A DNA stretch of 38,089 nt. Origin: a virus. Of this stretch, positions 1 through 26,313 are shown in pieces; within the stretch, counting starts at the first letter, position 1; each line of letters starts with the position of its first letter. The stretch spans positions 1 to 38,089 of IMG/VR virus record IMGVR_UViG_3300030103_001648. One strand, given 5' to 3'. Below the pieces are notes generated by a model. That model was not told where the DNA came from. It saw only the letters and a list, made by a program, of their open reading frames with translations, and searched no databases. The position numbers were made by a program, and so were the translations under genes.

Positions 1-19
1 ATTTTTCTAGGAGTTAAAC

Positions 20-1105
20 ATGGTTGAACAAACAGGATTGCTTGGTAACTTTGGTCAGAATATGCAGCGTGGGTTTGGCCGTTTAGGTGATGCGATTACC
101 GGCAAAGACCCAAACGCCAGAGATCAGTTAGCAATCGCCTTGATGAGCTTGTCTGGCAACCCACAGCAAACACAAGCGTTGCAACAACTTGCGGCGAATA
201 GGATACAGCAACGCCGACAGAATGAAACAAATAACAAGACTGTTGCGTTTATAAAGAATATCAATCCAGAAATAGGTGCCTTAGTTGAGGCCAACCCTGC
301 CCTTGCGCCTACTGCGTTACAGCAAATAATGAGAGCAAGAATGTCTGGCGGTGCAGATAACTCAACTGCATTGATGAAAAACTTTGCATTTTTACGTGAA
401 CAATTCCCAGATATGCAGCCAACAGATTTGTTGCAAATGGCTAGAGGCGGAACAAACGTAAATATTACTAATCAGTTGGGTGGTGAACAAGCCGGTGGTT
501 TGCCTAACACTGACGCAGTTAAAGAATTAGACAAAAAATATACAGCAGAGCTACTTAAATGGCAAACGAATGAACGAGCCGATTCACAAAAGTTAATTGA
601 ACAGCTAGATGCTGTTGCTAATGAGCTAAATACTAGCGGTTTTAATTTATCTGGGCCAATTCTTAATCTTATTCCCGACTATGCAAAAGCATTTACAAAA
701 GGCGGTCAAAGAGCAATTAGCACAAGAGAGGCTGTTGAAGAAGTTGTGCAAAGAAACTTAAAGGCAATTCTTGGCGGTCAATTTACAGAGCGTGAAGGGG
801 AAAAACTTGTAAAAAGAGCATTTAACCCTGCATTGGATGAGTCAGAAAACCTATTACGTGTTCAAAGATTACTAGCCCAGTTAAAAACTGCCTATGCCTC
901 AAAAACTGAAATGGCTAACCATTTTAATGAAAATGGTACGCTCGCAGGGTTTGATGCGGCCAAGATACCCAAAATTGGTGATTTCTTTGATGTTTTAGGT
1001 GATTTTGAAAATGAACAAGGTAATTCATCCAAAACAAGCTCCAGTAATCCAAACGTAACACATAGGTTTAATCCTCAAACCGGCAAAGTGGAGCCTGTCA
1101 AATGA
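20..1105 (+). CDS. Probable phage ejection (internal virion) protein
   Basis: This 361-residue, mostly helical and Gln/Asn-rich protein has no motif I can name. The ATG follows an AGGAG ribosome site at 10-14. Its last four bases overlap the start of the next gene, so the two are translationally coupled. The position just ahead of another probable ejection protein and a portal gene, together with the low-complexity helical composition and the Ser/Asn-rich end (TSSSNPNVTH), fits the internal virion proteins of podoviruses that enter the cell with the DNA. That role is inferred from context only. It is the first gene in the window, so whether module A's terminase lies upstream cannot be seen. 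Confidence 0.5.
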   Translation: MVEQTGLLGNFGQNMQRGFGRLGDAITGKDPNARDQLAIALMSLSGNPQQTQALQQLAANRIQQRRQNETNNKTVAFIKNINPEIGALVEANPALAPTALQQIMRARMSGGADNSTALMKNFAFLREQFPDMQPTDLLQMARGGTNVNITNQLGGEQAGGLPNTDAVKELDKKYTAELLKWQTNERADSQKLIEQLDAVANELNTSGFNLSGPILNLIPDYAKAFTKGGQRAISTREAVEEVVQRNLKAILGGQFTEREGEKLVKRAFNPALDESENLLRVQRLLAQLKTAYASKTEMANHFNENGTLAGFDAAKIPKIGDFFDVLGDFENEQGNSSKTSSSNPNVTHRFNPQTGKVEPVK

Positions 1106-2553
1106 GCGTTGTTGTTGATGCAGGCAATGGTAAAGTTATTGAATTTCCAGATGAGGCAACTGCAAATGCTTATTTTGCAGAACAGCAAGCAAAGCCTAGA
1201 TTTGGAACCTTAAAAGAAAACATATTTGGTGAAGGTGAAATAGACACTCCTGGCGAATACGTTGGGGATTTAATAAATTCAGCAGGCGCAGGGGCTTTAC
1301 GAGGCGTAAGGGGAATACTTAACCTCCCAAGCGACGTTGGCCAATTCACAAGCAATCTTACAAGAAAAGCTATCGGCAAAGAAGCATTGCCAAGAACAGT
1401 AAAAGCCGGTGATGCCGTTGATGCTTTGGTTGGCGAAGATCGAGTAAATTATGTAAGCCCTACCACTGGCGGTAAATACATGGGCACTATTGGAGAGTTT
1501 GCAACAGGTGCCGTTGGTGGTGGCCCTGCCGCGTTACGTACTGCCGTTACAGCCGGTTTAGGAAGTGAATTTTTAGGACAAAAGGCTGAAGGTACCGCAT
1601 TTGAGCCTATCGCAAGAATAGTTGGTGCCTTTGCTGCTCCCGCTAGTCTAAGCGCAGTAAGCGGAATAAAAAACAAAACCTTTCAAGCATTTACAAAAAA
1701 AGCTGTTGAAACGCCTTCACTGGAAAATTTAAGAATTGCAAAAAATGCAGCATACAAAGTAGTCGATGATTCAGGTGTAAAGTTTACCGTAGATGAAATA
1801 GATAATTTTGTGGCAACTGCAAAATCAAAACTTGATGATTTTAATTATGTTCCAGACGTGGATAAACAAACAAAAGCTTCCCTGCAAATTTTAGAAAGTC
1901 AATTAGGCAAAGAGCTTACTATAGGAAAGTTAGATAAGCTACGCCAAGGTTTATATAAAAGATATACGGCGGCTCCAAATGAGCAAGGCATTAAATCAAT
2001 GATTGATGATATAGATGATTTGATTGAAGCTAAAGAGCCTGCAAATAAGCTCATGGAAGCAGCAAGAACCGCAAATAAAAAATATAAAAAGTCTGAGCTA
2101 TTCGATGAGGCTATGACAAAAGCGCAAGATCAAACAGGCTCATCTGGTTCTGGTGGTAATTTAGTAAATAATTATAGAGCAGCAATTAAGCAAATAATAA
2201 ACAGCAAAAGAGATAGTCGGTTTTTTGATGAAAAAGAAATAGAAGTTATGAGGCAATTAGTAAGGGGCGATTTACCAGATAACGCATTACGTCTGGTTGG
2301 AAAGCTTGCCCCAACAGGTAATGGCTTAATGACATATCTCAACATTGGAGCAGTTGCGCTTGAACCAACAATGCTTGGAGTAACTATAACTGGCGCTTTG
2401 TCAAAGCAAGCATCTCAGGCCAGAACAAAGAACGCAATTCAAGCAGTCAGAAAAATGCTTGCAACAGGTGTGCCGCCAGAAAAACGAGGATTAATCACCG
2501 ACAAAGATATTCGTATATTGTTGGGTCTACAAGCAGATGAGGAACAGCAGTAA
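1102..2553 (+). CDS. Probable phage ejection (internal virion) protein
   Basis: This is a 483-residue protein. Residues about 1-30 (VVVDAGNGKVIEFPDE) resemble the short beta-like opening of many podovirus internal virion proteins. Residues about 58-190 are Gly/Ala-rich and amphipathic (SAGAGALRGVRG, GAVGGGPAALR), which suits a protein that crosses or inserts into membranes. The rest is charged and helical. The ATG overlaps the stop of the gene before, and the portal ATG overlaps this gene's stop (TAATG), so these genes form one operon. The function is inferred from composition and from lying directly before the portal. I see no lytic transglycosylase signature. Confidence 0.5.
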   Translation: MSVVVDAGNGKVIEFPDEATANAYFAEQQAKPRFGTLKENIFGEGEIDTPGEYVGDLINSAGAGALRGVRGILNLPSDVGQFTSNLTRKAIGKEALPRTVKAGDAVDALVGEDRVNYVSPTTGGKYMGTIGEFATGAVGGGPAALRTAVTAGLGSEFLGQKAEGTAFEPIARIVGAFAAPASLSAVSGIKNKTFQAFTKKAVETPSLENLRIAKNAAYKVVDDSGVKFTVDEIDNFVATAKSKLDDFNYVPDVDKQTKASLQILESQLGKELTIGKLDKLRQGLYKRYTAAPNEQGIKSMIDDIDDLIEAKEPANKLMEAARTANKKYKKSELFDEAMTKAQDQTGSSGSGGNLVNNYRAAIKQIINSKRDSRFFDEKEIEVMRQLVRGDLPDNALRLVGKLAPTGNGLMTYLNIGAVALEPTMLGVTITGALSKQASQARTKNAIQAVRKMLATGVPPEKRGLITDKDIRILLGLQADEEQQ

Positions 2554-4550
2554 TGGAAATGCAACCTAAAACCGAACAAGAAATATCTGCAATTGTCCAA
2601 GACGCGATGCAAAACGCAGTTGATTTTGTTGAAAGTGAAATAAGCGAAATAAGGCTAAAAGCGCAACGGTATTACGATGGAGAAGTAGACATTGGCTATG
2701 AAGATGGCAGAAGCAAAATCGTAAGCAGCAAAGTAAGGGATGTAGTTCGCGCTACTAAGCCAAGCATAATGCGTGTTTTTATCAATCATGAGTTTAACAG
2801 ACTTAACGGCTACCGTGTTTTAAGTGATGCAATCCATGACGCGCTTGTGAAAAAGCAGGGCATTATCAAGGCGTATCACAAGGAATACCCAACAGCAAAA
2901 ATATACACATTATCAGACCTTTCTGAAGATGAGTTAAGCTTACTTACAAGCGACCCAGACGTTGAAGTGCTAGAGCAAAGCATGGAAATGCGTATGGAAA
3001 TGGATGAGTTTGGCGTAGATGTTGAGGCACCAATATTTGCAGTCAAACTTAGCCGCAAAGAAATGAAAGGCGATCTATGCATAGAAAGCGTACCGCCAGA
3101 GGAATTTTTTGTAAATCGAGATGCTAGAACAATAGAGGACGCATACATTGTAGCGCACAGAACTGATATGCGTGCCGGTGATGTGATTGCAATGGGCTAT
3201 GATCCAGATACAGTTTTTAACCTTGATGGTTTAACAAGCGGATCAGAAATAACAGAAGCAGAGGTGCAAGCGCGTCAAGGGTATGATGAAGATTTTGCAG
3301 ATGACGATGAGCAAGACCCTGCAATGAAAAACATTACCATAACAGAAGCTTATATGCGTATGGACGTTGATGGTACTGGCATACCTGTTTTGCATAAGTT
3401 TTTGTTGGGTGGCACTGCATATGAATTATTAGACTTTGAGCCTTGCGATGAAGTGCCAATGGTAAAGCTAGAAGTAGACCCAGAGCCACACTCGTTTTAT
3501 GGACGTAGCCTTTGTGAGCTTATTGCAGATGACCAAGACGCAAGCACAGCGATCTTGAGGGGCATTTTGGATAATGTTGCCCTTACAAACAACCCTAGAC
3601 TTGGTTTTCTCGAAGGTAGTGTGAACGTTGAAGACCTTATGAACGCTGAGATTGGCGGCTTGGTTAGAATGAGGCAGCAAGGCAGCATACAAGATTTAAG
3701 CATACCATTTACAGCAGGCCAAACATTAGGCGCATTGACATACTTAGATAGGCTTGTAGAGCAAAAAACAGGCGTTACGCAAAACATGGCTCTTAACCCT
3801 GATGCGATGCAGTCCACAACCAAAGCAGCCGTTACAGCAAGTGTAGAGGCAGCAGCAGGCCAAGTTGAAGTTATGGTCCGTAATCTTGCTGATGGGCTAA
3901 GAGACTTGTTTAAAATTATTCTGCGTATCATGCACAAGAACTTTAACGAAGAAAAAATGATGCGTATGAATGGTCAGTTTGTGCCAGTTGATCCTAGAGT
4001 TTGGGATTTATCAATGGACGTAAGCGTAAACGTTGGCTTGGGTACTGGACGCGAAGATGAAAAGGTAGCCGCCTTACAGCAAGCACTAACAATGCAGACC
4101 CAAGTATATCAGCAATATGGCCCTATGAATGGGTTGGTTAGCCTTACAAACATACGCAATACAATTACTGACATGATGGCAACAGCCGGTGTGCGTAACT
4201 CAGATAGATACTTTGCGCCGATTAACCAGGAGATCGAACAGCAAATGTTGGCGTTACAACAGCAACAACAAGCTATGATGGCGCAACAGCAACAAGACCC
4301 TAACGTTGCATATCTACAGGCCGAGCAAATGAAAGCCCAAGCTAAGATGCAATCTGACATGGCGAAGCTACAGTTAGACGCAACCAAAGCAGCCGCAGAA
4401 GATGATTTAAAACGCGATCAGATGGCGCAAGATTTACTTGTTGATGCGGCCAAGGTAGCGGGTCAGTACGGAACAGCCGTTGATGTAGCCAGAGTTAAAG
4501 CAGAACAAGACAAGCTTAGAACCGTAGCAGGGATTGCCCAACAACAATGA
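2553..4550 (+). CDS. Portal protein, P22-type (module A)
   Basis: This 665-residue protein should form the ring at the capsid vertex through which DNA is packaged and ejected. Its length is close to the about 725 residues of P22 gp1. The opening (helical, then YYDGEVDIGYEDGRSKIVS and RDVVRATKPSIMRVF), the central block with PHSFYGRSLCELIAD and the long Gln/Met/Ala-rich helical end (about 560-640) match the usual layout of P22-like portals. It is followed by a small gene, a scaffold gene and a capsid gene, which is the classic portal-scaffold-coat order. It overlaps both neighbours by a few bases. A second, unrelated portal lies at 22402-23940, which is unexpected on one phage genome. Confidence 0.82.
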   Translation: MEMQPKTEQEISAIVQDAMQNAVDFVESEISEIRLKAQRYYDGEVDIGYEDGRSKIVSSKVRDVVRATKPSIMRVFINHEFNRLNGYRVLSDAIHDALVKKQGIIKAYHKEYPTAKIYTLSDLSEDELSLLTSDPDVEVLEQSMEMRMEMDEFGVDVEAPIFAVKLSRKEMKGDLCIESVPPEEFFVNRDARTIEDAYIVAHRTDMRAGDVIAMGYDPDTVFNLDGLTSGSEITEAEVQARQGYDEDFADDDEQDPAMKNITITEAYMRMDVDGTGIPVLHKFLLGGTAYELLDFEPCDEVPMVKLEVDPEPHSFYGRSLCELIADDQDASTAILRGILDNVALTNNPRLGFLEGSVNVEDLMNAEIGGLVRMRQQGSIQDLSIPFTAGQTLGALTYLDRLVEQKTGVTQNMALNPDAMQSTTKAAVTASVEAAAGQVEVMVRNLADGLRDLFKIILRIMHKNFNEEKMMRMNGQFVPVDPRVWDLSMDVSVNVGLGTGREDEKVAALQQALTMQTQVYQQYGPMNGLVSLTNIRNTITDMMATAGVRNSDRYFAPINQEIEQQMLALQQQQQAMMAQQQQDPNVAYLQAEQMKAQAKMQSDMAKLQLDATKAAAEDDLKRDQMAQDLLVDAAKVAGQYGTAVDVARVKAEQDKLRTVAGIAQQQ

Positions 4551-4783
4551 GCGATATTCGTATAACGGCTGAAGAAGCCAAAAGGTTAAAAAACGATACT
4601 GCATTTAAGCAGTTTGTTGAGAATGTTCGAGAGCGTCAAAAAGATGTTTTCGCAACTAGCGATGCCAAAGATATTGAGGCACGCGAAGAAGCGCACGCAG
4701 TTATTCGTGCATTAAATTTAATTGAAATGAACCTTGACGCTGCAATTGCAGCAGAGACATTTTTAGATTTAAGAAAGGGTTAG
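4547..4783 (+). CDS. Small conserved-type phage protein between portal and scaffold
   Basis: This 78-residue soluble helical protein starts with an ATG that overlaps the portal stop (ATGA) and ends four bases before the scaffold gene. I do not recognise a domain. It is charged, with no signal peptide or membrane segment. Its fixed place between portal and scaffold suggests a minor role in head assembly, but nothing in the sequence shows which. Confidence 0.6.
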   Translation: MSDIRITAEEAKRLKNDTAFKQFVENVRERQKDVFATSDAKDIEAREEAHAVIRALNLIEMNLDAAIAAETFLDLRKG

Positions 4784-4787
4784 TACC

Positions 4788-5768
4788 GTGAACGACACAG
4801 CTAACACAATTGATGCTGCCGTTGAGCAGCTTATACAAGTACCAGATACTAGTACTGAAGATGCTACAGAAGAAGTAGTAGAAGAAACATCAGAGGAAGA
4901 AGTTGTTGAGCCAACTGAGCAAGAAGCTGAGAGCGAAGAAACTTTAGAATTTGATGATGAAGAACTGTCAGATATTGATTTTGACAGCGACGATGTAGAA
5001 GAAGTCCTAGAGGAAAGCACTGAAAAAGACAGTCTCCACACCGTTAAAATCAACGGCAAAGAGGAGAACTGGACACTGGATCAGCTTAAGCAATCCGCAG
5101 CCGGGCAAGGTTACATCAACCAGAGGATGCAAGAGGTTGCAAAGCTTGAAAAAGCTTACAAAGAGCAAGCTACTGCCCTCGCCCAACAGCAACAACAACA
5201 ATTGGAGTTTTTTCAAAAAGCGCAACAAACTGGTTTCTCAGAGCCTACCCCACCGTCAAAGGATTTGTTTGAGTCCGATCCAATAGCTTTTATGCAAAGC
5301 AAGTTGGAATACGACGAGGCAAAGGCTGAACACGATACCAAAGTGCAACAATTTCAGCAAATGCAAAAGCAGCAAGAACAACAGCAGCAACAGCAATTGC
5401 AGGCGTTTACCCAACAGCAAACTCAATTACTTTCAGAAAAGTTACCTGATATTGCAGACCCAGAAAAAGGCGAAGTGATAAAAAAGGGCTTGATGGAAGT
5501 AGGAGAGCACTATGGGTTTTCGCAACAGGAATTGGAAAGCGTGCGAGATCATAGGTACATACTAGCAATGTATGATGCCATGCGTTTTCGTAAGCTTTTG
5601 CAAAAGCGCGGCAAAGCCACCTCTAAAAAGCAGAGCATTGCCCCAGTGAAAGCCGGTGCGAAGAAAATGCCGAATGTTGGGAAAGCTAAAGCACGTAAGC
5701 AAAAACAAGACCGCTTGCGTAAAACCGGGTCAATTGATGATGCAGTTGATCTAATCCTAAACAGTTAA
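4788..5768 (+). CDS. Scaffolding protein (module A)
   Basis: This is a 326-residue protein with a GTG start. Residues about 15-85 are extremely acidic (runs of Glu/Asp). Residues about 120-215 are a Gln-rich helical, probably coiled-coil stretch, and the end (about 275-310) is very basic (Lys/Arg). An acidic, helical body with a basic C-terminal helix is the usual build of phage scaffolds, where the basic end grips the coat protein. It lies directly before the major capsid gene, 22 bases apart. The role is inferred from composition and gene order. Module D has its own scaffold at 24200-24919. Confidence 0.75.
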   Translation: MNDTANTIDAAVEQLIQVPDTSTEDATEEVVEETSEEEVVEPTEQEAESEETLEFDDEELSDIDFDSDDVEEVLEESTEKDSLHTVKINGKEENWTLDQLKQSAAGQGYINQRMQEVAKLEKAYKEQATALAQQQQQQLEFFQKAQQTGFSEPTPPSKDLFESDPIAFMQSKLEYDEAKAEHDTKVQQFQQMQKQQEQQQQQQLQAFTQQQTQLLSEKLPDIADPEKGEVIKKGLMEVGEHYGFSQQELESVRDHRYILAMYDAMRFRKLLQKRGKATSKKQSIAPVKAGAKKMPNVGKAKARKQKQDRLRKTGSIDDAVDLILNS

Positions 5769-5790
5769 GCCTTTTGAAAGGAAATACAAA

Positions 5791-7061
5791 ATGGCACAAC
5801 CAAGTAACACGTTCGACAGCTTAAGCACATAGGCTGTTGTGTCTGGTAACAGGCACTAGCAACGGCGTGAATTGTCTGGGAAGCCCTTAGAGTCGATAAC
5901 ACTACAACGTAACTGGCAACGGTAAGCGTGAATGTTTAAAAAGGTATCGAATTGGGTAATCAGCAGCCAAGCGTCTTAGGGATAAGATGAAGGTTCAACG
6001 ATCAGGCATATGAGACTAGAACAGTCAATAAAAGCCCACGAGTGCGCCGCCCCTTAATACAAGGGTGAAGATATGATCTGGACTAGCGTGAAAGCGTTAG
6101 AAAATTAGGGTAAACTCCTAGTTGGTAACATAACGATGATGCTGTTGGCATAAAAGAAGACCTTCAGGACGTTATTTATAACGTTTCGCCTGAAGAAACA
6201 CCATTTCTAACGAAGTGTCGCAAAACTACTGCGTCCAACACTTTGCATGAATGGCAAACAGATAGCCTAAGATCAAGTGCTGCAAACGCACATATCGAAG
6301 GTGATGCAACTACTGCTGAAGCTCGAACAGCAACAACACGTTTGAGCAACAGAACGCAAATCTTTAAAAATGCGGTAGTCGTTCCAGACACAGACGAAGG
6401 TTTGGACAAGGCCGGTAGAGCGCGTGAAATGGCATTCCAAGTGTTAAAAATCTCTAAAGAGCAAAAGCTTGATGTAGAAAAAGCTCTTTTTGATAATAAC
6501 GCTAAAGTAGATGGTAATGCTACTACTGCCCGCGAAATGGCCGGTGCTCCTGTTTGGATGACTTCAAACGTCAACTTCCAATCAGGCAATTCTGGCGCAA
6601 ACCCCAACGGTACTGGCACCAATGCGCGTACTGATGACGGCACAGCGACAGCTTTTAGCCAGACTAAATTCGACGATGTGATGCAAAGCATTTGGGAAAA
6701 TGGTGGGACTCCAGGTACTTGTTACCTCTCTGCTTTCCAAATGAATAAAGCATTGGCGTTCACTGGTAATAACAACCAGAGAGCCAACGTTGTTGCAGAT
6801 GGTGAGCGTGTGATTAACTCACTGTCAATCTACCTAACTCCTTGGGGTCAAGTTGCTTTCCAACCATCTAGAGAAAACCGTTCTCGTGACGTTTTCATCA
6901 TGCAAGATGATATGTGGGAAGTGGCAGTTCTTAGACCGGCAAAGAATGTTGAGTTAGCCAAAACCGGCGATAATTCAACAAGACAGGTTGTCCAGGAATT
7001 AACACTTGTCTGCAAAAACGAAGCCGCTTCTGGCATCATTGCTGACAACACTACGTCATAA
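5791..7061 (+). CDS. Major capsid protein, DUF5309/SU10 type; gene split by a group I intron (join 5791..5821, 6136..7061)
   Basis: Read straight through, the ATG at 5791 (ribosome site GAAAGGAAA at 5776-5784) gives only 13 codons before a TAG. Joining 5821 to 6136 gives one open frame of 318 residues with the junction FDS-YDAVGIKEDL, followed by DVIYNVSPEETPFLT. That is the expected N-terminus of DUF5309/SU10-type HK97-fold capsid proteins as I know them (typically NTF-x-YDA-x-G-x-EDL-x-DVIYN-x-SP-x-TPF). The rest of exon 2 is a normal capsid body ending in TAA at 7059-7061. An open frame can also be called from 6243, but that lacks the true start. Splicing must occur for any capsid protein to be made. 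The gene follows the scaffold and precedes a strong hairpin. Confidence 0.88.
5822..6135 (+). ncRNA. Group I self-splicing intron, probably subgroup IA, no ORF
   Basis: This 314-base intron sits in the capsid gene. P1: exon bases 5814-5821 pair with the guide 5832-5839, with the expected U-G pair at the splice site (5821 with 5832). The conserved elements are in order: P (AATTGTCTGGGAAG, from 5870), Q (AATCAGCAGCCAAG, from 5958), R (GGTTCAACGATCAGG, from 5992) and S (AAGATATGATCT, from 6068). P4 is 5876-5879 with 5960-5963. P3 is 5863-5867 with 6045-6049. P7 is 6000-6004 with 6074-6078. P8 is 6051-6055 with 6061-6065. P9-type hairpins follow S. An extra hairpin (6014-6017 with 6023-6026) between the P7 and P3 strands points to subgroup IA. 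The last base, 6135, is the required G. It is too short to encode a homing endonuclease. Confidence 0.92.
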
Positions 7062-7063
7062 TT

Positions 7064-7089
7064 TGTAGGGGCGGTTCGCCGCCCCTATA
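7064..7089 (+). terminator. Strong hairpin after capsid gene (module A)
   Basis: The stem TAGGGGCGG / CCGCCCCTA (7066-7074 with 7079-7087) has a TTCG loop and two further outer pairs. It starts three bases after the capsid stop. No T tract follows on either strand, so it may act as an mRNA end stabiliser or a partial terminator rather than a full intrinsic terminator. Confidence 0.6.
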
Positions 7090-7125
7090 CTATACAAGTA
7101 CAAAATACTCTTAGGAGGCAGAACA

Positions 7126-7389
7126 GTGAAAGTACAAGTAAACTATAGGTCCATGTCTACGTCGCAAGGCATTAAGCGTAATGGTGATATAGTAGACCTA
7201 CCGCAAGCCGAAGTAGACCAGATATTAGAATTTAAACCTGGCACTTTAATTGAAGTAGATGTTCCGGCTGTTTTCAAAACAGCAAAGCCAAAAGCTAAAA
7301 CAAAGAAACGTGCAAGAAACGCAAACGGCACGCTAAAAGCTGATGATCCAAGCACACCAGACGTGAACGAGGCTTGGGAAGATGGCTAA
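7126..7389 (+). CDS. Small protein with LKADDPSTPD-NEAWE C-terminal tail
   Basis: This 87-residue protein starts at GTG 7126, with AGGAGG nine bases upstream deciding the start. Residues 1-50 look like a small beta-rich domain. Residues 52-68 are Lys-rich (KPKAKTKKRARN). The end, residues about 70-86, reads TLKADDPSTPDVNEAWE. The same tail ends the otherwise different protein at 19874-20116. It stands between the capsid gene and the membrane-protein cluster, so a head-completion or virion-associated role is possible but unproven. Its stop overlaps the next gene. Confidence 0.65.
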   Translation: MKVQVNYRSMSTSQGIKRNGDIVDLPQAEVDQILEFKPGTLIEVDVPAVFKTAKPKAKTKKRARNANGTLKADDPSTPDVNEAWEDG

Positions 7390-7678
7390 TAATCAAATAG
7401 GCGAAAAGGTAACGTTTGACGGCGATCAAATGATTATCAAGCGTACCTTTGATGCGTCTGGCATGATCCAAGATGCTGAGTATGCGCGTCAAACTTCACC
7501 TAACGCCATAGGCAGCGATTACAAGCATATCGGCAACATTGAGCCTGCCCTAGTCACCAACTGGCTACGCGAAGCGGGTGTTGATTGGAGCGATACCCAC
7601 GCTGTTCAAGAAGTCATCAAAGTTAAGCTTATGGATGGCGAGTTTGCCAAGCTGCGCAATTGGGAGGGGTCTTGGTGA
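7382..7678 (+). CDS. Hypothetical phage protein
   Basis: This 98-residue soluble protein has an ATG that overlaps the end of the gene before by eight bases. It has no signal peptide or membrane helix. The middle part (IEPALVTNWLREAGVDWSD) is amphipathic and helical. I recognise no family with certainty. It lies right after the capsid-side genes and before the membrane cluster in the same rightward operon. Confidence 0.6.
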   Translation: MANNQIGEKVTFDGDQMIIKRTFDASGMIQDAEYARQTSPNAIGSDYKHIGNIEPALVTNWLREAGVDWSDTHAVQEVIKVKLMDGEFAKLRNWEGSW

Positions 7679-7872
7679 GCGAAGATAAACGAACAGTTGC
7701 CTCTGCCCATACACGCATTGATGGATTGGAGAAAGAGGTTGTGGAAATTAAAACCGAAATGAAAATACAGCTTAAAGACTTGTATAACCGCATAAAGCGT
7801 ATGGAAGCCATTATGATCTGCATAACTGGTGCAAGCTTGCTGTTGCTACTTAGAATGACGTTTCTGAGCTAG
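7675..7872 (+). CDS. Coiled-coil plus membrane-anchor protein, XhlA-like (possible holin accessory)
   Basis: This is a 65-residue protein. I chose GTG 7675 because GGGAGGGG lies just upstream and the start overlaps the preceding stop (GTGA). A TTG at 7660 in the same frame is less likely. Residues about 8-45 form a charged coiled coil (RIDGLEKEVVEIKTEMK). Residues about 46-62 are one hydrophobic helix at the C-terminus. This layout is that of XhlA-like phage membrane proteins found in lysis cassettes, and the endolysin lies further along the same operon. Lysis function is inferred. Confidence 0.6.
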   Translation: MSEDKRTVASAHTRIDGLEKEVVEIKTEMKIQLKDLYNRIKRMEAIMICITGASLLLLLRMTFLS

Positions 7873-7876
7873 GACA

Positions 7877-8353
7877 ATGGACCCGGTTAGCTGCGTAGCT
7901 TTAGCAACAGGCGCATTTAAGGCTCTCAAGGGTGCAGTGGCGGCAGGCCGTGATTTTCAAGATATGACAAGCCAACTGTCTACTTGGGGCAAGGCTTTCA
8001 GCGATTTTAACGAAATAGAAAAGCGAGAAAAAGACCCACCATTTTGGAAAAAAACTTTCCGAGGTTCTGATGAAGAAACAGCAATTGAGATTTTCGCCAA
8101 TAAGAAAAAGATGGAGCAAATGAGGGCTGAAATCAAAGATCATATCAGTTGGACGTATGGCCCTAGCGCATGGAAAGAAGTTCTGCAGATTGAAGCTCAG
8201 ATGCGGAAACAACGCAAAGATGAGCTTTACCGCAAGCAAGAGCAAATAGACAACCTCATAAACTTTGCCATTGGCGCGGTTATTTTTGTTTTAAGCGGCG
8301 GTATTTTGTTTGTTGCGTTTTACTTTTTGGGCAAATGGCAAGGCCGTTGGTGA
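7877..8353 (+). CDS. Membrane-anchored hypothetical phage protein
   Basis: This is a 158-residue protein. Residues about 1-25 are mildly hydrophobic and small-residue rich. Residues 28-125 are charged and helical, with KDPPFWKKTFRGSDEE and FANKKKMEQMR. Residues about 128-152 form one strong membrane helix (IGAVIFVLSGGILFVAFYF). I have the impression of similar proteins in other marine phages but cannot name a domain. It sits in the run of membrane proteins ahead of the endolysin and overlaps the next gene (TGATG). Confidence 0.6.
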   Translation: MDPVSCVALATGAFKALKGAVAAGRDFQDMTSQLSTWGKAFSDFNEIEKREKDPPFWKKTFRGSDEETAIEIFANKKKMEQMRAEIKDHISWTYGPSAWKEVLQIEAQMRKQRKDELYRKQEQIDNLINFAIGAVIFVLSGGILFVAFYFLGKWQGRW

Positions 8354-8529
8354 TGTGGTTTCTTATATGGATATCATTCTCAACTGGCGGTGGCTTGGAA
8401 TACTACCAGGTAGGCAATGTTTATACGTCAAAAGATGCGTGCCTTGCAGAAAAATCAAAAGCAAAAACTTTAGTAACAGCAGCAACACAAGCGGTTCACT
8501 GTTTTGAAGCTATTAGAGAGAAAAAGTAA
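8353..8529 (+). CDS. Small exported protein with a Cys pair
   Basis: This is a 58-residue protein. ATG 8353 overlaps the stop of the previous gene (TGATG). An in-frame ATG at 8335 would lengthen it by six residues. The N-terminus (MWFLIWISFSTGG) is a hydrophobic signal or anchor. The exported part has a DAC motif, a Lys/Ala helix and a second Cys 20 residues later, which could form a disulfide in the periplasm. The 72-residue protein encoded at 10552-10770 on the other strand has the same plan. The function is unknown. Confidence 0.55.
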   Translation: MWFLIWISFSTGGGLEYYQVGNVYTSKDACLAEKSKAKTLVTAATQAVHCFEAIREKK

Positions 8530-8668
8530 ATGGGTGCTTTACGACGAAAACGGCAAAGTGGTGGTCATAACAAAAGATCGAGGAATTGCCTTAAAGATAG
8601 CGAGGAAAGCCAATGACAGAGTTCGACAAGGCAGACAAAAACGGCAACGGAGTTATAGAGCCAAGTGA
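8504..8668 (+). CDS. Possible small overlapping gene
   Basis: A third frame here encodes LYDENGKVVVITKDRGIAL and then KIARKAND, which reads like a real small protein. A TTG at 8504 (giving MKLLERKSK) or a GTG at 8534 could start it. The stop is at 8666-8668. It overlaps both neighbours, by 26 bases on the left with the TTG and by 56 bases on the right. The competing frame from ATG 8530 gives only a 28-residue Arg/Ser-rich peptide and looks less protein-like. No clear ribosome site is seen for TTG 8504, hence the modest confidence. Confidence 0.4.
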   Translation: MKLLERKSKWVLYDENGKVVVITKDRGIALKIARKANDRVRQGRQKRQRSYRAK

Positions 8669-8993
8669 GTGGGAAGCATTGGAGCTTTACAACAGACGCA
8701 AAGAGATAGATGACGCTGACAAACGTAGAGACAGCCAGCGAAACATGGCCTGGTTTTCTTTGTTGGGCCTCCTACTCTATCCGTTTGCAGTCTTACTCGC
8801 TAGCGCCATCGGCCTTGACCAAGCAGCCGAAATTATTGGCGCTATGGCGTCCATTTACTTTGTTAGTATTGCGGCTTTAGTTGGCGCATTTTTTGGTTTT
8901 TCTAGCATGGAAAGTAAAAGCGCCACCAAGAAAACAAGCACTGGCATGACAACTAGTTCAGAAATCTCAAGCGAAAAATTCAAAGGAGACTAA
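8613..8993 (+). CDS. EF-hand membrane protein (holin-like context)
   Basis: This is a 126-residue protein. Residues 8-19 (DKNGNGVIEPSE) are a complete EF-hand calcium loop, with D8, N10, N12, G13, I15 and E19 at the canonical places. A charged helix follows. Two membrane helices lie at about 46-68 and 78-97, then a Ser/Thr/Lys-rich tail. It is inside the membrane-protein run before the endolysin, so a holin-type or lysis-timing role, possibly calcium sensitive, is a fair inference. Nothing proves pore formation. Confidence 0.65.
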   Translation: MTEFDKADKNGNGVIEPSEWEALELYNRRKEIDDADKRRDSQRNMAWFSLLGLLLYPFAVLLASAIGLDQAAEIIGAMASIYFVSIAALVGAFFGFSSMESKSATKKTSTGMTTSSEISSEKFKGD

Positions 8994-8994
8994 A

Positions 8995-9168
8995 ATGGGT
9001 AAAGGAATGAAGCATTACTTGCGTAATGGAACAGAACATAAAGGTAATATGCATAAAATGGCAGACGGTACTTTGCATACTGGTGTTAGGCACACTGCCA
9101 ATAGCAAACGCTTGTTTCACCTTAACGAACTTAGCAAAACAGCCAAAAAGAAAGCGATGAAAAAATGA
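8995..9168 (+). CDS. Small basic protein, MGKGMKHY type
   Basis: This is a 57-residue basic, His/Lys-rich protein (MGKGMKHYLRNGTEHKGN). The ATG follows AAAGGAGAC at the end of the gene before, a clear ribosome site. From memory, similar short proteins with a Lys/His-rich opening and a LxxLSKxAKKKA end occur beside packaging and lysis genes in marine podoviruses. No function is known to me. Its stop overlaps the ATG of the next gene. Confidence 0.65.
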   Translation: MGKGMKHYLRNGTEHKGNMHKMADGTLHTGVRHTANSKRLFHLNELSKTAKKKAMKK

Positions 9169-9623
9169 TGACATTACTAGGCAGCTTGCTTGGGTTTGGC
9201 ACGTCGTTTTTACCAGAGGTGCTTAACTATTTTAAGGCAAGCCAAGATCACAAGCATAACTTAGAGCGTATGCAAGTTGAAATGGACATGATGACCAAGC
9301 GCAATGAGCTAAAGCTAAACATCATAGATAAGCAAGCGGAGATTAAAGAAACAGAGGGGTTATACAAGCATGATTCAATGGATTCTGGGGGTTTTGTCAA
9401 CGCATTACGTGGAAGTGTCAGGCCTGTTATTACTTATTGTTTTTTTGCTCTTTTCGTCTCCGTACAAGCGGTAGTGATGCTCAAAGTAATGGCCGAAGGT
9501 GGCAACTGGCAAGACGCCATACCGCTTATGTGGACAGCAGAAACGCAAGGCTTGTTTGCTGCAATAATGAGCTTTTGGTTCGGCAATCGAGCCGTGAGCA
9601 AATATTACGGAGTGAAGAAATGA
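9165..9623 (+). CDS. Holin-like membrane protein, 3TM GTA_holin type
   Basis: This is a 152-residue protein. The N-terminus (LLGSLLGFGTSFLPEVLNYF) is an amphipathic or hydrophobic segment. Residues about 25-70 are a charged coiled coil (NLERMQVEMDMM, IIDKQAEIKE). Residues about 80-150 contain SVRPVITYCFFALFVSVQAVVML and then LFAAIMSFWFGNRAV. The RP-x-ITY and FWFGNRA signatures are those of the 3TM GTA_holin family. The likely role is a pore or membrane lesion at lysis. It lies two genes before the endolysin. Confidence 0.7.
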   Translation: MMTLLGSLLGFGTSFLPEVLNYFKASQDHKHNLERMQVEMDMMTKRNELKLNIIDKQAEIKETEGLYKHDSMDSGGFVNALRGSVRPVITYCFFALFVSVQAVVMLKVMAEGGNWQDAIPLMWTAETQGLFAAIMSFWFGNRAVSKYYGVKK

Positions 9624-9886
9624 GTGACTTAAAGGTGCCTCTAGCCCTTGTTGTGGCAATCATCATGCAGACTGTTGGGGGCGTCTGGTGGATTAGCAGC
9701 CAGATGCACAAGATTTACCACCTCGAAGATCAAGTAAAAGAAAACAACGGCTGGATTGACCAACTATACGGCGATACCGAAGCTCTCATTAAGTTTGCAG
9801 AATTTACAGAAAATAAGTGGGCTGAGAGTTATGAAGCAGATGGCTATACCCGGCAATGGGGAACAAAAGCAGTGGAGTTAGATTGA
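9620..9886 (+). CDS. Small single-helix membrane protein, possible spanin-like
   Basis: This is an 88-residue protein. The frame is open further upstream, but ATG 9620 overlaps the preceding stop (ATGA) and follows AGTGAAGAA, so the longer form is rejected. Residues about 6-26 are one membrane helix (VPLALVVAIIMQTVGGVWWI). The rest is a charged periplasmic-type helix ending in an acidic tail. Its place between a holin-like gene and the endolysin would suit an inner-membrane spanin, but the coiled part is short, so this stays a guess. Confidence 0.6.
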   Translation: MSDLKVPLALVVAIIMQTVGGVWWISSQMHKIYHLEDQVKENNGWIDQLYGDTEALIKFAEFTENKWAESYEADGYTRQWGTKAVELD

Positions 9887-10425
9887 TGAAAGACAATTGG
9901 GAAATGTTCTTTGATATGCTGATAAAGCATGAAGGTGGCTTTACGGACGATCAACGCGACAACGGTAATGCCAAAGGCGATGGACACGGCAATGAAGGTT
10001 CTACAATGTTAGGCGTTACTGCCTGGAATTGGGCAAAGTACACCGGCAAGCCTGCGCCTAAAGATGTGATGAAAGCACTGACAAAAGAAGATGTGAAGCC
10101 GCTATACAAGCAAAACTATTGGGATGTAATAAAGGCAGATCATTTGCCAAGCGGTGTTGATATTTCTTGTGCAGATTTATGCGTAAACGCAGGGCCAAGC
10201 AGAGCCGCAAAAATATTGCAAAAAGCAGTTGGCGCTACGGCAGACGGTAAAATAGGAAAAATGACAATTGCAGCCGTGCATGATCGAAAGCCTCAAGAAG
10301 TGTTAGACAACTACTACTACGGCAGGCAAAAGTTTTACGAAAGTTTAGACGATTTTAAACATTACGGAAAAGGTTGGACAAGGCGCAACAAAGAAACGCT
10401 AGAGTTGGCCTTGTCTATTGTATAA
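9886..10425 (+). CDS. Endolysin, glycosyl hydrolase family 108
   Basis: This 179-residue enzyme should cleave peptidoglycan glycan strands at lysis. Residues 12-19 (LIKHEGGF) carry the HEGG motif with the likely catalytic E16. LGVTAWNW follows at about 45-52, then the helical GH108 core. The C-terminal part (about 100-140, CVNAGPSRAAKILQKAVG and DGKIGKMT) is the PG_binding_3 type peptidoglycan-binding domain. The length is normal for the family. There is no signal peptide, so a holin from the upstream membrane genes is expected to release it. The start overlaps the preceding stop (TGATG). Confidence 0.9.
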   Translation: MKDNWEMFFDMLIKHEGGFTDDQRDNGNAKGDGHGNEGSTMLGVTAWNWAKYTGKPAPKDVMKALTKEDVKPLYKQNYWDVIKADHLPSGVDISCADLCVNAGPSRAAKILQKAVGATADGKIGKMTIAAVHDRKPQEVLDNYYYGRQKFYESLDDFKHYGKGWTRRNKETLELALSIV

Positions 10426-10427
10426 AA

Positions 10428-10451
10428 AAGGGGGCACCTCACTACCCCCTT
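10428..10451. terminator. Terminator hairpin between convergent gene blocks
   Basis: AAGGGGG (10428-10434) pairs with CCCCCTT (10445-10451) across a 10-base loop. Read on the - strand it is followed by a run of T, so it should end the leftward early transcript. It also lies just behind the endolysin stop and can end the rightward one. The 100 bases up to 10551 hold nothing else I can name. Confidence 0.75.
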
Positions 10452-10551
10452 AGTATCTGGTCATTTCATCCGTAAAAATAAAACCCAGACTGCTATGGTT
10501 TGAGCAGGAGTTTGAACGAAAAATGCTCGGCACTCATAGCTTACGATATTA

Positions 10552-10770
10552 TTAAGGTCTTTTCATTGGTTTAACTAATTCATTAGAAGCAACTTGTGTT
10601 CCTTTGCAATACACATGCACGTTTTTGTGCGTTGCATAAGGAACAAATGTATTTCTAATCTTTGCTTTGTTTTCGCTACAGGCATCATAGCTTGGGAACA
10701 TTAACGGATATTCTATTGTTTCTCCGTTAATACAAAAACTTAAAATCATAAATGTCCAATACTTAATCAT
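10552..10770 (-). CDS. Small exported protein with a Cys pair
   Basis: This is a 72-residue protein with ribosome site GGAAGG before its ATG. The N-terminus (YWTFMILSFCINGETIEY) is a signal or anchor. The exported part has a DAC motif and a second Cys 24 residues on (VHVYC), then a short polar tail. The order of features and the words IEY, DAC, KAK and VH-x-C match the protein at 8353-8529, so the two look like distant copies on opposite strands. It is the last gene of the leftward block. The function is unknown. Confidence 0.6.
   Translation of the reverse strand: MIKYWTFMILSFCINGETIEYPLMFPSYDACSENKAKIRNTFVPYATHKNVHVYCKGTQVASNELVKPMKRP
10625..10637 (+). promoter_or_regulatory. Copy of the TTGTGCGTTGCAT element, inside an opposite-strand gene
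   Basis: These 13 bases are identical to the element at 21835-21847 and have the same + orientation. Here they lie within the 72-residue - strand gene and would drive antisense RNA against the end of the leftward block. A shorter likeness (GCGTTGCAT) in coding sequence near 11043 shows that chance copies occur, so this may not be functional. Confidence 0.3.
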
Positions 10771-10807
10771 AGGTTTACCTTCCTTTTGTTTTTATTTATT
10801 ATTGTTT

Positions 10808-10835
10808 TGGGGTAGTTTCCTCAATTGCTACCCCA
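10808..10835 (-). other. Hairpin at the end of the 122-residue gene
   Basis: TGGGGTAG (10808-10815) pairs with CTACCCCA (10828-10835), with a 12-base loop. The right arm includes the stop codon of the leftward gene above it. On the - strand it is followed by A-rich, not T-rich, sequence, so it is more likely an RNA stability element than an intrinsic terminator. Confidence 0.4.
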
Positions 10836-11196
10836 CGACACATTCTTCTCTGGGCAATCTGAATCTTGCTATACAGTTATTAACTGTTGTTAAATCATCT
10901 CCTAAAATATCTGCAATATCTTCTGGTAATAAAGAATACTTTGTAAGCATTTTATTTATTGTAAATGCTTTTGCTGATACCTTTACTTTTTTATTTCTTT
11001 TACGTCCTCCTCTGCCCATTGTGTTCATTTGACTTATTTTACTGCGTTGCATTGTGTTGCCACTGCGCCCAGTATTAATTTGTTTTTCTTGTTTTGTTGC
11101 TTTGATATTCATCATCATCCCTATTTCTTTTTCGGATGGCGCTCTTCCAAACGCTTTGACAAAGCTATCAACAGTTAATTCTACAGTCTCAATCAT
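10828..11196 (-). CDS. Hypothetical basic protein with a helix-turn-helix-like end
   Basis: This is a 122-residue protein. Residues about 1-30 are acidic and helical (VDSFVKAFGRAPSEKEIG). Residues 32-75 are very basic and rich in Asn, Gly and Ser (GRGGRKRNKKVKV). Residues about 80-116 (INKMLTKYSLLPEDIADILGDD, then LTTVNNCIARFRLP) look like a helix-turn-helix, so DNA binding is plausible. The ATG overlaps the stop of the 59-residue gene before it (TAATG). I do not recognise a family. Confidence 0.6.
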   Translation of the reverse strand: MIETVELTVDSFVKAFGRAPSEKEIGMMMNIKATKQEKQINTGRSGNTMQRSKISQMNTMGRGGRKRNKKVKVSAKAFTINKMLTKYSLLPEDIADILGDDLTTVNNCIARFRLPREECVVG

Positions 11197-11375
11197 TAGA
11201 TATTGTACCCCTCTTTTCTAAGTTTTGTTGTAAAGTCTTTTAGTTCTTGTTGTGCTAGCTTTAATTCATTAATGATGCTTGGTCTTGCATCAGGTTGATA
11301 ACGTTCATCTTGCAACCGATCAACTTGTGTACGCAAGTACTTTAACATCTCTTCTTGAATTTGATTTAGTTTCAT
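11196..11375 (-). CDS. Small coiled-coil hypothetical protein
   Basis: This is a 59-residue protein that a 60-residue cut-off misses. It is almost wholly charged helix (MKLNQIQEEMLKYL, then ELKLAQQELKDFTTKL). AGAGG lies nine bases before the ATG. The stop overlaps the next gene's start (TAATG), which supports it as a real, co-translated gene. It begins just after the terminator at 11391-11414, so it needs read-through or its own start of transcription. The function is unknown. Confidence 0.6.
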   Translation of the reverse strand: MKLNQIQEEMLKYLRTQVDRLQDERYQPDARPSIINELKLAQQELKDFTTKLRKEGYNI

Positions 11376-11967: not shown

Positions 11968-12423
11968 TTATGATGCCGACTTATGCCACGTCTGCGTTCG
12001 ACTTTTGGTCTTCTCACTTGCCGTGTCAGCCAACGAATTTGTTTGTGTAGTAGATTGATTAGCATCATCATCTTCGGATGGAAGATTAAGTAATGACATA
12101 ATCCCATAGCGTCTTGCGTATGTAACTGCACTGCCAAGACCTTGCATATCATTCTTAGCTAATACAAGTGGGACGCTAGATTCCATTGACCAATCAGGAA
12201 AATCTTGATGATAAATTGCAGTTGCAACAAATGTTCCCAGTTCATTTGATCCGACTTGCTGACTCAGAAAGAAACCATTGTTAGCAAGTGGCTGAGTAAC
12301 AGCTTCTATGCACCCTTCAAGAGTAACATAGCGGCTGCGGAAATGTGGGTTAGTACCCTCTTTCTTTGGTGGTTGTATTTCTGATCTTGCTTTGATTAAC
12401 AAGCCAATAATATTTTTAGTCAT
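11968..12423 (-). CDS. erf: Erf-family single-strand annealing protein
   Basis: This 151-residue protein anneals complementary single strands during phage recombination and genome circularisation. The N-terminal part has NPHFRSRYVTLEGCIEAV. The hallmark GSAVTYARRYGIMSLLNL stands at about 97-114, as in the Erf superfamily. A Ser/Thr-rich acidic tail follows (about 115-151). Its ATG overlaps the exonuclease stop (ATGA), so exonuclease and annealing protein are co-translated, the usual pairing of a Red-like recombination system. A lambda-beta type protein is ruled out by the TYARRY motif. Confidence 0.85.
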   Translation of the reverse strand: MTKNIIGLLIKARSEIQPPKKEGTNPHFRSRYVTLEGCIEAVTQPLANNGFFLSQQVGSNELGTFVATAIYHQDFPDWSMESSVPLVLAKNDMQGLGSAVTYARRYGIMSLLNLPSEDDDANQSTTQTNSLADTASEKTKSRTQTWHKSAS

Positions 12424-13205
12424 TTTACATTCCTCTTTGTTATGCGTAAGCTACCGCGCTTGTCGCGCTTTACTGATAGTTGATCACAGTAAACCTCACG
12501 CTCGTTTTCTGCAATCATATCCTTCAAGTTTTTCTTTGCTGTTTCAAATTGTTTGTGATCGGATTCTTTATTAATGTAAGTAACGGCTGCGTCGATAAAC
12601 CTGTTGTCGTATGTTGCGTCACGTGCAACCATTTCGTCCAACGGGATTTTGTCAATCGAGAGCGAGGGCGTATCGACACCAATCGGCTCCTCATTGCGAA
12701 GAACGTAACCCCAGAAGTCTGACACCACCGCCCACATTGAATTGAAATACTCTTTATCATAGCTAATACACACCGCTTCCCATTTGCTGTTACCAAAAAT
12801 TACTGAGAGATAGCACTCTGATACACCAGACATATGCATGTATAATTGCATCTGTGGCATGTATTTTTTTACCATATCATTCATGCTGTTAAATGCATTG
12901 GTATGTTTAGCCTCAATGATTGCACTGTAACTCAAGTTATTCCACATAGCATCAACAGTACCTTTGACAGAAACAATACCAATTTCATCTTTAAATTCTG
13001 ATTGATGGCATGATAGTACACAGTCAAAGCTTTTCTCAAACCATTGCAGATTGAAGTCTTCAGTATGAACACCAAGCTGCACTGCTAGATTGTCAGATAA
13101 ATCTTCTGATTCAATAAGACCAGTTTTGATTTGCCACAATTGTAACCAATTGCCTTGCATAATCTGGACACAATCACTGCCCCCGATAAAACCTTTTCGG
13201 TTCAT
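12420..13205 (-). CDS. YqaJ-type viral recombination exonuclease
   Basis: This 261-residue enzyme is expected to chew one strand from DNA ends to feed the Erf annealing protein. I start it at ATG 13205 because GGAGGAAGTAATG gives a strong ribosome site. An ATG 12 bases upstream lacks one. The visible YqaJ motifs are GGSD (8-11), GVHTE (45-49), D85 in GTVDAM, E98-A-K100 (IIEAK), and QMQLYMHM (118-125). These are the metal-binding and lysine residues of the PD-(D/E)xK fold. The same ribosome-site string stands before the DUF932 gene. Confidence 0.85.
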   Translation of the reverse strand: MNRKGFIGGSDCVQIMQGNWLQLWQIKTGLIESEDLSDNLAVQLGVHTEDFNLQWFEKSFDCVLSCHQSEFKDEIGIVSVKGTVDAMWNNLSYSAIIEAKHTNAFNSMNDMVKKYMPQMQLYMHMSGVSECYLSVIFGNSKWEAVCISYDKEYFNSMWAVVSDFWGYVLRNEEPIGVDTPSLSIDKIPLDEMVARDATYDNRFIDAAVTYINKESDHKQFETAKKNLKDMIAENEREVYCDQLSVKRDKRGSLRITKRNVK

Positions 13206-19873: not shown

Positions 19874-20116
19874 ATGGGATGGATAATAGCAAATTCTGGT
19901 GAAGATTATGATGGAGAAACTCATGAGCTTGCTGGAACTACATACACAGGCAAGACAAGAACTTCTGAGTCTCGAAGACTTGTATGGGTTGTAGGTCAAC
20001 CTTTAAGCAAAATACTTGAAAAGCCTAAGAAAAAGAAACGTGCTAGGGATTCTAAGGGTAGGCTAAAGGCTGATGATCCTTCTACACCAGATATAAACGA
20101 GGCTTGGGAACAGTGA
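19874..20116 (+). CDS. Small protein with LKADDPSTPD-NEAWE C-terminal tail
   Basis: This is an 80-residue protein. The ATG follows a weak AGGACA ribosome site. Residues 1-50 form a short beta-like domain (WIIANSGEDYDGETHELAG). Residues about 51-60 are KKKKR, and the end reads RLKADDPSTPDINEAWE, the same tail as the protein at 7126-7389 in module A. The front parts of the two proteins do not resemble each other. The tail may be a capsid-targeting or interaction tag. This is inference. Confidence 0.65.
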   Translation: MGWIIANSGEDYDGETHELAGTTYTGKTRTSESRRLVWVVGQPLSKILEKPKKKKRARDSKGRLKADDPSTPDINEAWEQ

Positions 20117-25503: not shown

Positions 25504-26313
25504 ATGGCTAATACAATAGATCAAGCCTTTATCAAGCAGTTTGAAACCGATGTGCATCTTGCTTATCAGCGCATGGGTTCTAAATTGCGAAACACTATTC
25601 GTTCTACGAATGTGTCAGGTAATGTTGCGCGATTCCAGAAAATTGGTACTGGAACAGCGTCAACAAAATCACGAAACGGTAATGTAACTCCAATGGAGCT
25701 AACACATACTAATGTGGAAGTAACAATGGCTGATTACTATGCGGCTGAGTATATCGACAAACTTGACGAAATTAAGACAAACATTAATGAACGTCAGGCT
25801 GTTGCTGAATCTGCTGCTGCTGCTTTGGGTCGTAAGACTGATGAGATTATTACTACCGCATTAGATGCGGGTGCTAACTCAACTCAGTTACACGATACAT
25901 CGTCTGCCGTTGAAAAAGCAGATTTGTTATCTGCATTTGAAACCTTTGGGTCAGCTAACATTCCCGAAGATGGGCAACGCTATATAGCAATGTCTCCTGC
26001 AGGTTTTGCAGATTTGTTCAACATTAATGAGTTTGCATCATCAGACTTTGTTGGGCCACAAAATCTACCGTTTGCAGGTGGTATGACAATGAAAGAGTTT
26101 TTAGGTTTTAAGATTTTTTCAACGTCTGCTGTATCAGGTGGCAAAAACTTTTGTTACCATATGCGTGCGGTAGGTATTGGTGTGAACTCTGATGTTCAAA
26201 CTGAAGTCAACTATGTAGCAGAAAAAGTATCACACCTAACAACATCAATGATGTCAATGGGTTCAGTTGTTATTGATGACAACGGTGTATACGAACTGCT
26301 AGATAATAACTAA
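25504..26313 (+). CDS. Major capsid protein (module D)
   Basis: This is a 269-residue protein. The opening (IDQAFIKQFETDVHLAYQRM, then GSKLRNTIR) and the middle (NIPEDGQRYIAMSPAGFADL) match the capsid proteins of T7-like marine phages as I know them (HK97 fold). It builds the shell on the scaffold at 24200. It is followed at once by a decoration-like gene. A second capsid protein of another family is encoded at 5791-7061. Confidence 0.85.
   Translation: MANTIDQAFIKQFETDVHLAYQRMGSKLRNTIRSTNVSGNVARFQKIGTGTASTKSRNGNVTPMELTHTNVEVTMADYYAAEYIDKLDEIKTNINERQAVAESAAAALGRKTDEIITTALDAGANSTQLHDTSSAVEKADLLSAFETFGSANIPEDGQRYIAMSPAGFADLFNINEFASSDFVGPQNLPFAGGMTMKEFLGFKIFSTSAVSGGKNFCYHMRAVGIGVNSDVQTEVNYVAEKVSHLTTSMMSMGSVVIDDNGVYELLDNN

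Follow-up and report, generated by a model that had tools for sequence, protein, structure and literature searches.

The major capsid gene of the phage analysed here is interrupted after its first ten codons and one base by a group I intron of 314 nt, which contains no open reading frame and is almost certainly self-splicing. The gene lies in the window, by which we mean the whole 38,089-nt stretch of viral DNA analysed (IMG/VR record IMGVR_UViG_3300030103_001648, positions 1 to 38,089). Its start codon is found at position 5791, and the unspliced frame runs into a TAG codon at 5830 to 5832 after only 13 codons (MAQPSNTFDSLST*), as had been stated in an earlier, sequence-only reading of this DNA. 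When the exons are joined from 5821 to 6136, a protein of 318 amino acids starting MAQPSNTFDSYDAVGIKEDLQDVIYN... is obtained, in which the residues spanning the exon junction are NTFDSYDAVGIK. The predicted spliced mRNA, 314 nt shorter, reads ...TTCGACAGCTATGATGCT... across this junction. The joined protein matches the SU10_MCP family from residue 7 to 315, covering the profile over its length (PF17236; e-value: 1.6e-81), as well as the 'major head protein' family PHROG 1328 (e-value: 1.2e-79). Stops break all three frames of the intron, and a homing-type endonuclease ORF is absent from the 314 nt. The parts of the interrupted gene and two further head genes of the same phage are as follows:

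5791 to 5821, plus strand: capsid exon 1, ten codons and the first base of codon 11, ending in U; the 5′ strand of P1 is 5814-5821
5822 to 6135, plus strand: group I intron of 314 nt, no ORF, terminal G (RF00028; empty sites in L002 and L003; same intron in L070)
5830 to 5832, plus strand: in-frame TAG stop shortly 3′ of the 5′ splice site
6136 to 7061, plus strand: capsid exon 2, the remainder of the SU10-type major capsid protein (PF17236 on the joined protein)
2553 to 4550, plus strand: SU10-type portal protein (PF23899; e-value: 9.8e-162)
4788 to 5768, plus strand: head scaffolding protein (PHROG 3927; e-value: 2.1e-45)

The borders of the intron are given by relatives in which the site is empty. 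Two viral records with capsid proteins sharing 99% (L002) and 96% (L003) identity with that of the window lack the window intron, and their flanks are joined exactly at 5821/6136. The L002 DNA reads ...TTCGACAGCT up to the junction and ATGATGCTGTT... after it, and the following 56 bases are identical to the window. Furthermore, the capsid genes of 141 distinct relatives, sharing 36-83% identity, continue uninterrupted through all three intron sites described in this study. Together with the exact junctions in L002 and L003, these genes mean that the border is not guessed from the protein, and the full-length PF17236 match and the L002 junction bear out the proposal that this join restores the N-terminus of the family. 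Three other records were set aside: the gap at this point in L089, considered as an extra intron carrier, is a run of N, the gene of L102 is uninterrupted and only divergent, and the apparent late capsid start of L227 is caused by a one-base frame error.

The Rfam group I intron model (RF00028) matches positions 5812-6100 (51.5 bits; e-value: 2e-10), barely exceeding its gathering score of 50, and is the sole Rfam family matched anywhere in the window. The last 35 bases of the intron (6101-6135) fall outside this match and were assigned by the empty site, the terminal G and P9.1. Pairing is possible for P1, P2, P3, P4, P5, the P5 extension, P6a, P7, P7.2, P8, P9 and P9.1, among which are the P3, P4, P7, P8 and P9 helices named in the sequence-only reading, and the catalytic core (P3, P4, P6, P7 and P8), including the guanosine-site helix P7, is complete by pairing. 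The borders follow the group I rule, with the terminal U of exon 1 pairing with a G of the guide sequence and the intron ending in G6135. The P1 of eight pairs with a U-G pair at the splice site, which had likewise been proposed, places U5821 opposite G5832. The length of P1 was rejected as evidence by itself; an equally long downstream partner exists for 85 of the 10,854 T's of the window. The elements of the fold are located as follows:

5832 to 5839, plus strand: internal guide sequence GGCUGUUG, forming P1 with the exon end CGACAGCU (eight pairs, terminal U.G)
5840 to 5855, plus strand: P2 hairpin, UGUCUG-GUAA-CAGGCA
5863 to 5867 and 6045 to 6049, plus strand: P3, 5′ strand CGGCG and 3′ strand CGCCG
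6000 to 6004 and 6074 to 6078, plus strand: P7, 5′ strand GAUCA and 3′ strand UGAUC
6083 to 6100, plus strand: P9 hairpin, CUAGCG/CGUUAG, with both-side pair changes in L070 and L222

The fold is further supported by covariation with two related introns, in the viral records L070 and L222, which are described below. Relative to the window, L070 has pairs in which both partners are altered in the P5 extension, P6a and P9, and in L222 both strands of P7 are altered, from GAUCA/UGAUC to GACUA/UAGUC. One pair is broken in the P5 extension of L070 and one in P8 of L222. The P4 helix of the window intron contains a bulged U that is missing from the L070 copy, a point against the self-splicing reading. 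A GACU/AGUC hairpin (P7.2) and a GGC/GCC pairing can form at 6005-6037, and from these possible extra P7.1/P7.2 stems between P7 and P3 the intron is tentatively placed in subgroup IA (IA2). The original identification, of a group I intron that lacks an ORF and interrupts the major capsid gene, is supported by the covariance model, the exact empty sites, the covariation and the existence of a second copy in the same position.

This second copy is found in L070, which derives from another metagenome and is interrupted by this intron at the identical base (RF00028; 51.2 bits); an exact-pattern scan of viral contigs for a third copy found L070 only. The window and L070 share 92.9% identity in the intron, compared with 71.1% in exon 2, 84% in exon 1 and 56% in the upstream region. 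The intron is thus far more alike than the host genes, which points to its recent horizontal movement. A 346-nt tract free of SNPs between the window and L002 spans the intron site, but was rejected as a co-conversion scar of homing because a longer identical run, of 386 nt, is found in the portal gene. None of the ORFs scanned in the left ~11 kb of the window matched an HNH, GIY-YIG or LAGLIDADG endonuclease in Pfam or PHROG, so that the claim of no clear endonuclease nearby holds for this region. The window intron is unable to home unaided. L070 has a free-standing HNH gene downstream of its interrupted capsid gene (4832-5236, minus strand; PHROG 3106; e-value: 1.4e-14). It was considered as the mobiliser of the intron and no link was found, with homologs occurring in the intronless L023, L028, L029, L051, L054 and L055, and the window lacking it.

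The intron-bearing phage is marine, podovirus-like and related to Octadecabacter virus DB2. The proteins encoded between 2.5 and 10.4 kb group with those of this virus (MW805364; capsid identity: 67.7%; shared gene order) and of L002 and L003. The left part of the window (1-11200) harbors the SU10/DB2-like portal, scaffold and capsid genes, and from 11.49 kb onwards the right part (11490-38089) harbors genes like those of pelagiphage EXVC031P, with their own terminase, T7-like portal, capsid and tail genes. A right-type capsid or terminase was found in 0/20 left-type records, and two early genes located at 11.49-13.2 kb were found in right-type records only. The absence of the tested genes of each type from relatives of the other type suggests that the record is probably a chimeric contig, or else two adjoining phages, with the join near 11.2-11.5 kb. 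The intron is located deep inside the left type and is unaffected by this join. A small gene at 7126-7389 in the left part and another at 19874-20116 in the right part encode a nearly identical C-terminus, KADDPSTPD[VI]NEAWE.

The second capsid gene bears on the reading of the intron as a decayed, non-splicing group I relic, by which the interrupted gene would be dead and the phage would use another capsid gene, such as the T7-like one at 25504-26313 (PF19821; e-value: 2.1e-60). The presence of this gene in the window and the Rfam score near the threshold would agree with such decay, but the gene appears to belong to another phage, given its absence from all 20 first-type records. Moreover, a copy that has diverged by 7% retains the helices, with compensatory changes, and exon 2 is intact and shares 96% identity with that of L002, and we consider decay very improbable. 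Still less probable is an assembly artefact, in which the intron of a foreign genome would have been inserted into the capsid gene during assembly: misassembly is possible in a window that itself resembles two phages joined at about 11.2-11.5 kb, but L070, of different metagenomic origin, has this intron at the identical base, the junction is precise and in phase with a guide sequence that fits the local exon, and the window is collinear with L002 and L003 from 2.9 to 10.4 kb.

Further group I introns are present at the start of the same capsid gene. In both L002 and L003, a different intron of 261 nt is located exactly 56 bases downstream of the window intron site (RF00028; 96 and 97.7 bits), at a position that is empty in the window:

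6191 to 6192, no strand: empty 'site 2', the location of the 261-nt group I intron in L002 and L003

A pattern derived from the kin introns additionally identified L222, in which an SU10-type capsid gene is split after ...NREDLTD, between the window intron site and site 2. The L222 intron is 989 nt long (reverse complement, about 74-1062), shares 74-76% identity with the window intron in the core and is the closest relative of the latter after L070. Its 5′ part holds an ORF of 224 residues with an HNH domain (PF01844; e-value: 1.6e-5), for whose product a search of the viral contigs found no second close copy, the match in phages being distant. Two further genes were noticed in L108, the intron-B phage: one for DNA modification, of the Mom family (PF25680; e-value: 1.1e-32), and one that is serine-recombinase-like (12134-12760 and 10431-11159).

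The five intron carriers thus comprise two at site 1, two at site 2 and one, HNH-bearing, at the middle site. A single stretch of ~20 codons in this capsid gene family has therefore received introns on at least three occasions, and the start of the gene looks like a repeated landing site for group I introns. It is possible, although on balance doubtful, that the first ~30 codons of SU10-type capsid genes constitute a hotspot, in which three sites are invaded repeatedly and independently by related group I introns, the ORF-less forms (sites 1 and 2) spreading with the endonucleases of other phages, such as the HNH form of the middle site, and competing introns being swapped among near-identical phages.

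We infer splicing of the window intron from its anatomy, its conservation and published capsid introns that splice (PMC3706429). The intron would fold within the capsid mRNA, with the guide sequence GGCUGUUG pairing with the end of exon 1. A free guanosine would be used for the cut after U5821, and a second cut after G6135 and joining of the exons would give rise to the 318-residue capsid protein. Ribosomes reading exon 1 before splicing would halt at 5830-5832 and be kept off the intron core. An in-frame stop is found 3-18 nt past the 5′ splice site in 4/4 introns checked (window, L070, L002 and L222), and a stop at this point is typical of most group I introns, where it is thought to exclude ribosomes (PMC3073962). 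If the intron splices, capsid output would depend on RNA splicing, as suggested in the sequence-only reading, while any regulation by this means is speculation. The intron is a mobile element that was most likely acquired horizontally and lacks its own endonuclease; it may have lost such an ORF, may depend on an enzyme provided in trans, or may move by reverse splicing. Help in trans, or loss of the ORF, is made plausible by the L222 intron with its HNH ORF and by published work on collaborative or trans homing, in which an ORF-less intron is combined with a free-standing endonuclease (PMC3984707, PMC2988022). Such homing would account for the spread of ORF-less introns, and for the window a matching endonuclease partner is hypothetical.

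The clustering of three invasions, with both ORF-less and HNH-bearing forms, is the interesting part of these results, and a limited literature search found no report of such a clustered triple invasion of one capsid gene start. The five carriers and the 141 empty relatives provide a natural system for the study of how ORF-less introns move, and of how an intron in the first 30 codons is tolerated by a late gene with very strong expression.

A portion of ~130 nt of the window intron core (P4 to P6, including the P5 extension) shares 77-84% identity with group I introns of Staphylococcus, Listeria, Bacillus and Vibrio phages. Those of the Staphylococcus (Kayvirus and Sextaecvirus), Listeria and Bacillus phages share the P4-P5 extension-P6 region but interrupt other genes, among them recA and lysin genes; in the lysin gene of PT1-4, the only annotated region considered, the intron match is separated from the second lysin piece by an HNH gene. 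In Vibrio phage 1.232.O (L109, MG592596), an unannotated kin group I intron (3941-4211; 83.1 bits) interrupts the major capsid gene, as in the window, but this capsid gene is unrelated and is split close to its 3′ end; a free-standing HNH gene is located just downstream. The capsid annotated in MG592596 ends at the intron, without the second exon (YLGGFGISHNNPND...). Automatic annotation truncates such intron-split capsid genes.

Splicing of a capsid-gene intron has been demonstrated by RT-PCR in mycobacteriophage LittleE (Pope et al. 2013, PMC3706429). As in the window, a group I-like intron interrupts the coding sequence close to where the mature major capsid protein begins, the last base is U in exon 1 and G in the intron, and the empty site is found in relatives. 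The LittleE intron differs, however, in its size of 819-820 bp, its LAGLIDADG-like ORF on the bottom strand and its unrelated capsid and phage, while the absence of an ORF is shared by the window intron and the tail-gene intron of BAKA (PMC3706429). Lactococcal phage Tuc2009, as cited in the same paper, also has a group I intron in its capsid gene, but differs from the window phage in its Gram-positive host and its capsid. Capsid-gene group I introns are therefore already known, and the window intron represents a well-bounded addition to this small set.
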